Positions 40,596 to 45,885 of a DNA stretch of 45,885 bases are shown here, piece after piece (within the stretch, counting starts at the first letter, position 1; the number at the start of each line of letters is the position of its first letter). Origin of the DNA: an uncultured bacterium. Lineage in GTDB: Bacteria; Patescibacteriota; Gracilibacteria; Absconditabacterales; Absconditicoccaceae. Where the stretch lies: assembly GCA_903918675.1 (NCBI GenBank), contig CAIXFE010000082.1:1-45885 (forward strand), written 5' to 3'. The notes below the pieces were generated by a model. That model did not search any database, had not been told where the DNA came from, and saw nothing but the letters and a program-made list of their open reading frames with translations. The position numbers were made by a program, and so were the translations under genes.

Positions 40596-44414
<3,819 letters not shown>

Positions 44415-44504
44415 AGGACGTTTTGCCGATTAAGAAAATAAACAATTACATACAATGCTCATTATACCTTAGACGATTTTCACTTCTTTCGCAAAAAACT
44501 TACA

Positions 44505-44660
44505 CTATGCCTTTTGCACAGTAAGTTCTTTTCTTCCCTTTGCTCTTCTTCTTGCTAACACTTTCCTGCCGTTCTTTGTTTGCATTCTTTCTCTGAAACC
44601 ATGTTTATTGAGTCTTTTACGTCGAGAATATTTTCTCACTCTCCTTAACTTGCTTGCCAT
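44505..44660 (-). CDS. rpmH: 50S ribosomal protein L34
   Basis: [51 protein letters not shown]. Confidence 0.93.
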
Positions 44661-44776
44661 CTTTTATTGTTACAATCTAAAGATTTGAATCTACTGAGAT
44701 GATGGTGTATTGGTGTATTTGTGTATTGGTTATCGGTGTACTGGTTCCCCAATAACTAATAACAAATGGCGATTTT

Positions 44777-45346
44777 CTATTCCTTAACGTACTCTAACAA
44801 CCCAAGTTCTCTTGCCCTGAGAATCGATTCCCTAACTTTCTTTTGAAGGTTGACAGGATTGCCTGTATATTTTCTCGGTTTGATATTGCCAAATCTCGTA
44901 ACATATTTTTTGAGCATAGGGATTGCTTTCCAGTTGATGTATTTTGCATTCTTCTTATCAGCGAAGAAACTGAGCTTCTGTCAGAGTTTCTTTTGTTCCC
45001 AGCCTTCGATCACTTTTTCCATCTCCGCATTGATATCAGCAAATTTGAAAAATTCTTGAGTCGGATCCATTTTGTAAATTACATATCTTTTGATGGCTTT
45101 GTTGTAGACCATTTGTTTCTTAAAGGTCTCAATATTTTCAGCTGGCGATTGGATATGATAAGAATAGAGGTATGCTTTATCATTTCCTGCCTTATCCTTT
45201 AGATTGTAGGCTAAGGTTTTGAGTCCGATATCGTCCTTGAGGAGGATATTTTTGTCAAACATAGCTTCTACATTCTCCAAGACAGCATTGCGATCTTTGT
45301 CTGCCAGACTCGCATCTACCAAGAGAACTACATCATACTTTTGCAT
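44777..45346 (-). CDS. fused ribosomal proteins bS6-bS18 (single 189-aa ORF; UGA=Gly at the junction)
   Basis: S6: MQKYDVVLLVDASLADKDRNAVLENVEAMF...NKAIKRYVIYKMDP. Then EGWEQKKL[G]QKLSFFADKKNAKYINWKAIPMLKKYVTRFGNIKPRKYTGNPVNLQKKVRESILRARELGLLEYVKE (S18). Same frame; the only separator is TGA 44981-44983. Confidence 0.85.
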
Positions 45347-45382
45347 TAGACTATTATTTAAATATTAAAACCTATTTTTTGA

Positions 45383-45480
45383 ATGAGTGAATAGCGAACA
45401 GATAACAGTTAACAGCGGTGGTATTTTTTTTATATGAAACTTCCTACGCTGTTAGTTGTTCACTGTTAGTTGTTAACTAA
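45383..45480. repeat. microrepeat hairpin element, copy 3
   Basis: GTGAATAGCGAACAGATAACAGTTAACAGCGGTGGTATTTTTTTTATATGAAACTTCCTACGCTGTTAGTTGTTCACTGTTAGTTGTTAACT. Confidence 0.8.
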
Positions 45481-45885
45481 TTTCCGATTGCCATCCTTAT
45501 AAATCCGATGACTTTCATATCGGCTGGCAGAATATCTTTTATTTTCTTGCTTTCGTCTCTAATATATGACTGCTCCAATAATACATTTTCAGCCAACGCT
45601 TTCTTTATTTTTCCTTCCACGATCTGAGCGATCATAGCTTCTGGTTTCCCTGCAGCTTTGAGCTCTGCACCAAACTCTTCCTTCATCTGAGCTACTTGAC
45701 CTTGATCTACCTCATCAAAAGAGACATAGGTAGGATTCATAGCAGTCACTTGCAATGCTAGCTCCTTAGCTACTTCGTCATTTCCTCCTTCGAAGAAAAT
45801 AAGTGAAGCCACTTTATTGCCTGGATGATTGTAGATGAATGCTTTCTTGTGAGTAACTAAGACACTTCCAATTTTCATATTTTCA
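45477..45885 (-). CDS. tsf: elongation factor Ts, C-terminal part (continues beyond window)
   Basis: GNKVASLIFFEGGNDEVAKELALQVTAMNPTYVSFDEVDQ...GKPEAMIAQIVEGKIKKALAENVLLEQSYIRDESKKIKD; frame stays open to the window edge. Confidence 0.8.
   Translation of the reverse strand, partial: ENMKIGSVLVTHKKAFIYNHPGNKVASLIFFEGGNDEVAKELALQVTAMNPTYVSFDEVDQGQVAQMKEEFGAELKAAGKPEAMIAQIVEGKIKKALAENVLLEQSYIRDESKKIKDILPADMKVIGFIRMAIGN

Follow-up and report, generated by a model that had tools for sequence, protein, structure and literature searches.

Ribosomal protein genes rpsF and rpsR joined in one reading frame in a code-25 family of Patescibacteria

The window, by which we mean the whole stretch of 45,885 nucleotides that was analysed, very probably encodes ribosomal proteins bS6 and bS18 as a genuine fusion, likely to work on the 30S platform as a tethered heterodimer of its S6 and S18 parts. 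Coordinates of the gene, its parts and its neighbors are collected in Table 1.

Reading frame, domains and copy number

The proposal in the initial annotation that S6 and S18 form one polypeptide frame is borne out by an uninterrupted reading from ATG to TAG, 189 amino acids long, in which both domains score above their Pfam gathering thresholds. Ribosomal_S6 (PF01250) is found at residues 3-92 with an E-value of 2e-10 and 41.1 bits against a gathering score of 27, covering profile positions 1-90 of 90, while Ribosomal_S18 (PF01084) is found at residues 134-184 with an E-value of 1e-12 and 48.3 bits against a gathering score of 21, covering positions 2-52 of 52. The linker sequence quoted in that annotation is correct, and the entire frame, translated by code 25, contains a single TGA. 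No strand was stated there; the gene lies on the minus strand. Among NCBIfam models, the cut-off of the S18 model TIGR00165 is passed by the fusion; the S6 model TIGR00166 reaches 36.7 bits, under its cut-off of 42.9, and no NCBIfam model for an S6-S18 fusion matched the window protein.

The source genome is a draft of 1.39 Mb in 123 contigs, 92% complete. A genome-wide search matched S18 once and S6 once, each time inside the fusion frame, with no separate rpsR or rpsF copy elsewhere in the 92% recovered. A separate rpsR had been named as a finding that would speak against fusion; instead, S18 is present in exactly one copy in the window genome and in every genome of the family that has an S18 match. 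With single copies of S6 and S18, one frame, and no conserved start for the second domain, the locus, as judged by comparison of sequences, is an S6-S18 fusion at the gene level.

Table 1. Features of the fused gene and its surroundings, in positions of the window
Feature	Position	Strand	Description
rpsF::rpsR fusion gene	44777..45346	-	189 aa, ATG to TAG, code 25; ORF listing, Pfam S6 and S18 matches, kept in 30 family genomes
bS6 domain, residues 1-93	45068..45346	-	Pfam PF01250 at 3-92; AlphaFold2 model agrees with solved bS6 (P. gingivalis bS6: 1.5 A over 98 residues)
S6 C-terminal helix (102-117), junction and beginning of S18, residues 94-130	44957..45067	-	ungapped in 28 main-clade genes
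TGA read as Gly122	44981..44983	-	homologous codon TGA in 11/28, GGN in 17/28 main-clade fused genes
bS18 core domain, residues 134-184	44795..44947	-	Pfam PF01084
In-frame GTG, codon 112, S18 start suggested by the initial annotation	45011..45013	-	unconserved among fused loci
tsf (EF-Ts), C-terminal part, upstream neighbor	45477..45885	-	NCBIfam TIGR00116; extends beyond window edge
rpmH (bL34), downstream neighbor	44505..44660	-	NCBIfam TIGR01030
rpoB, downstream neighbor	40596..44414	-	9 in-frame TGA; fits code 25

Conservation, genetic code and the junction

Homologous loci in relatives, a check suggested at the outset, were collected from 50 genomes of the window's family (f1), which are all the genomes of its order that were examined. 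The fusion is uninterrupted in 30 of the 50 and frameshifted in one (G064); 17 have separate genes, and two have no match. Intact fusions are spread over 11 genera, including a single-contig assembly (G060), and their frames run from 185 to 189 amino acids; since the same frame persists in so many genomes, several of them without any TGA in it, a chance frame is excluded. The G064 gene (L056, approximately 1520-1560 of the reverse strand) is frameshifted directly ahead of the junction, which may be an assembly error or a real split. The two genomes without an S18 match, G011 and G057 of genus g4, both have rpoB at a contig start, and their S18 locus is probably cut off at the contig edge. The only relative contributed by a contig scan, L033, is apparently the same 5254-base contig as L035 of G042.

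These distributions bear on two explanations that would dissolve the fusion. One is that assembly or sequencing error removed a TAA or TAG, or a change of frame, from the window's draft of 123 contigs; a lost stop codon is ruled out by 29 further genomes with the same fusion, and with 30 intact examples in 11 genera, one of them in an assembly of a single contig, an artefact of any such kind is exceedingly improbable. The other is that TGA is a stop, as it would be under the standard code, so that S6 terminates there and S18 is made by re-initiation, giving two proteins from one operon. The initial annotation instead read the TGA at 44981-44983 as glycine, and all 28 intact fused genes of the main clade (defined below) agree: the column of residue 122 is glycine throughout, encoded by TGA in 11 and by GGN in 17, with GGA in the nearest relative, G005 (66% identical). 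The homologous GGN codons mark TGA as a sense codon and the fusion as independent of it; some fused genes of the family contain no TGA codon at all, and the nine in-frame TGA codons in the window's rpoB place use of code 25 beyond doubt. Use of this code suggests Absconditabacteria (SR1) or Gracilibacteria, and family f1 probably belongs to Absconditabacteria. Termination at this codon therefore has next to no chance of being correct. The claim that standard-code annotation would hide the fusion, by ending S6 at the TGA, does hold. From the codons at this column, the alternative code is what conceals the fusion from annotation but is not its cause, GGN standing at the position in 17 of 28 genes. 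Annotators should be warned that S6 will appear to end at the TGA under the standard code and that, with the S6 model below its cut-off, the protein may be called S18 alone.

Between the two domains lies a linker of 39 residues, with no gap in the 1092 cells of the main-clade alignment and a typical junction motif of KK-x-G-[QNK]-[KR]. In-frame TAA or TAG codons number 0 of 1138 in the linker, versus 90 of 2276 off-frame triplets in the same DNA (31% GC), tallies that are counts from related sequences and so not independent trials. Differences per linker site within the genus are 0.28, 0.18 and 0.54 at codon positions 1, 2 and 3; the second position is the least variable and the third the most, as expected of coding sequence and as also seen in the S6 and S18 parts.

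A gene may be fused while its products are separate, through post-translational cleavage or through an internal start yielding free S18, and the initial annotation had itself pointed to a GTG as such a start. The codon exists, at position 112 of the window's gene, with GGAG 9 nucleotides upstream, and a locus of genus g8 (L017) retains an in-frame ATG where S18 would be expected to begin. The GTG, however, is unconserved, being common to only two other loci; codons 104-126 are free of in-frame ATG in 24 of the 30 fused genes, and in six of the 30 no ATG, GTG or TTG occurs anywhere at codons 93-130. Separate S18 genes in the family, on the other hand, start with ATG in 17 of 17 cases (a Shine-Dalgarno-like stretch directly upstream, GAGG, was seen by eye in one of the 17, L018). 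A conserved separate start for S18 was considered and is unsupported, most fused genes lacking a candidate ATG. Fixed length and coding constraint in the linker would likewise be needless for a disposable spacer. We regard separate products as improbable, and infer that the fused chain remains uncleaved, although a protease cut or occasional initiation at GTG112 of the window's gene could set some S18 free.

Separate-gene relatives and number of origins

Operons in which the two genes are separate (L018-L026, L032, L037-L041, L044, L045, L057) keep the gene order of the fusion and, within the family, follow tsf as the fusion does wherever that neighborhood is seen. They differ in that each gene has its own stop and ATG and, in basal genera, in an intervening ssb paralog. 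In the fused clade, neither a stop nor a start stands between the two parts. In basal genera, tsf is followed by rpsF-ssb-rpsR, and the genome carries another ssb at a different site; in others, rpsF and rpsR lie 25-69 bases apart. An ssb gene is found elsewhere in nearly all of these relatives. At L018, L019, L024, L044 and L045, the ssb paralog inside rpsF–rpsR is divergent, and another ssb is encoded elsewhere. Outgroups of the class, where the stretch could be read, mostly have rpsF-ssb-rpsR, and these include a code-25 genome, G037. In that genome (L115 and L032; family f14, outside family f1), rpoB contains 24 in-frame TGA codons, and its lineage appears to use code 25 together with a separate S6-ssb-S18 arrangement. 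Alignment by eye places Gly122 approximately at the former S18 initiator. On the simplest path suggested by these arrangements, the ssb paralog inside rpsF-ssb-rpsR would disappear first, leaving the two genes adjacent, and the S6 stop and the S18 start would be lost last.

The main fused clade comprises 28 intact fused genes from nine genera, which fall on one side of a branch of the rpoB tree with SH-aLRT 99 (two of the 28 genes have no rpoB row; G064 and the two genomes whose locus is unseen are included on that side). Genera g8 and g34 are also fused, with junctions unlike those of the main clade. By AU test on rpoB, a single origin for all fusions in the family is rejected (p 0.011), as is a grouping of the main clade with g34 (p 0.005), while a grouping of the main clade with g8 is compatible with the data (p 0.64). 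The g8 fusion may thus be part of the main-clade event, and the g34 fusion looks independent of it; counts of origins inside the family are drawn from rpoB as the one marker, with some long branches, and are provisional. The g8 locus L017 (genome G015) keeps in its fused frame an in-frame ATG followed by KKKLTLF, which resembles the start of a separate S18 and is possibly a transitional state.

In a sample of 389 genomes from across the phylum, S6 and S18 in a single frame were found, beyond the window's own genome, only in family f27. There, five of six genomes (L121-L125) encode S6-S18 as one stop-free chain of approximately 192-199 amino acids under the standard code. The f27 fusion resembles the code-25 fusion in having S6 followed by S18 in one chain, but differs from it in genetic code, in gene neighbors, and in its junction, which has a conserved H..xNK; identity between the two sets is 18-24%. 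Because the sampled intermediates are unfused, the neighborhood and junction are different, and identity is so low, the f27 fusion is most likely of independent origin. An AlphaFold2 model of the f27 chain, built from five sequences, reached a pLDDT of 62, a low confidence, and was set aside.

Predicted structure and proposed role on the ribosome

Structure prediction for the 189-residue protein, another of the checks first suggested, returned a single chain that folds confidently: AlphaFold2, supplied with a 30-sequence alignment, gave a pLDDT of 90.4 and a pTM of 0.85. The model runs from the S6 strands and helices through a C-terminal S6 helix at 102-117 and a junction with pLDDT of about 75 to the S18 helices. 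Its S6 part superimposes on solved bS6 chains with an rmsd of 1.5 A over 98 columns and a TM score, by target, of 0.88 (Foldseek).

In ordinary bacteria, bS6 and bS18 associate as a heterodimer, in which form they bind both the uS15-organised central domain and their own mRNA leader, and they jointly repress their operon (PMC10931766). The fusion has both domains of that pair and the same operon order, but where the ordinary bS6:bS18 is two proteins it is one polypeptide, its S6 without a free C-terminus and its S18 without a free N-terminus. A search of 44400-45885 for the S6:S18 autoregulatory leader RNA gave no Rfam match apart from one sub-threshold chance hit. The predicted chain, consisting of the S6 domain, the C-terminal helix of S6, a short Gly-containing junction and the S18 domain, would most likely be incorporated into the 30S platform already paired, its S6 and S18 parts forming a covalently tethered heterodimer. 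One chain would fix a 1:1 supply of the two proteins and make their assembly with each other intramolecular, and these benefits to stoichiometry and assembly are what a tether may be expected to offer. In E. coli, RimK glutamylates the free C-terminus of S6, a site that S6 in the fusion would lose.

On the 30S platform, bS21 adjoins bS6 and bS18. No match to bS21 (PF01165) was found in 49 of the 50 genomes of family f1. The only match in the family is in G023, a genome without TGA, and may be contamination.

The statement in the initial annotation that no S6-S18 fusion had been described stands, provisionally, for the literature searched, in which we found no such description; subscription papers and UniProt/RefSeq were outside its scope. 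Bacterial proteins in which one core ribosomal protein is fused to another seem to be rare.

A broader reading is that covalent merger of S6 and S18 recurs in the reduced Patescibacteria, with at least three origins (main clade, g34 and f27), and that the code-25 family has a remodelled platform without bS21, on which the tether may alter how the 16S 3' tail or upstream mRNA is handled; we offer it tentatively, as a possibility more doubtful than probable. The fusion offers a ready-made tether for assembly experiments. Fixed across a clade and arisen more than once, it is evidence from nature that the two proteins work as an obligate unit.
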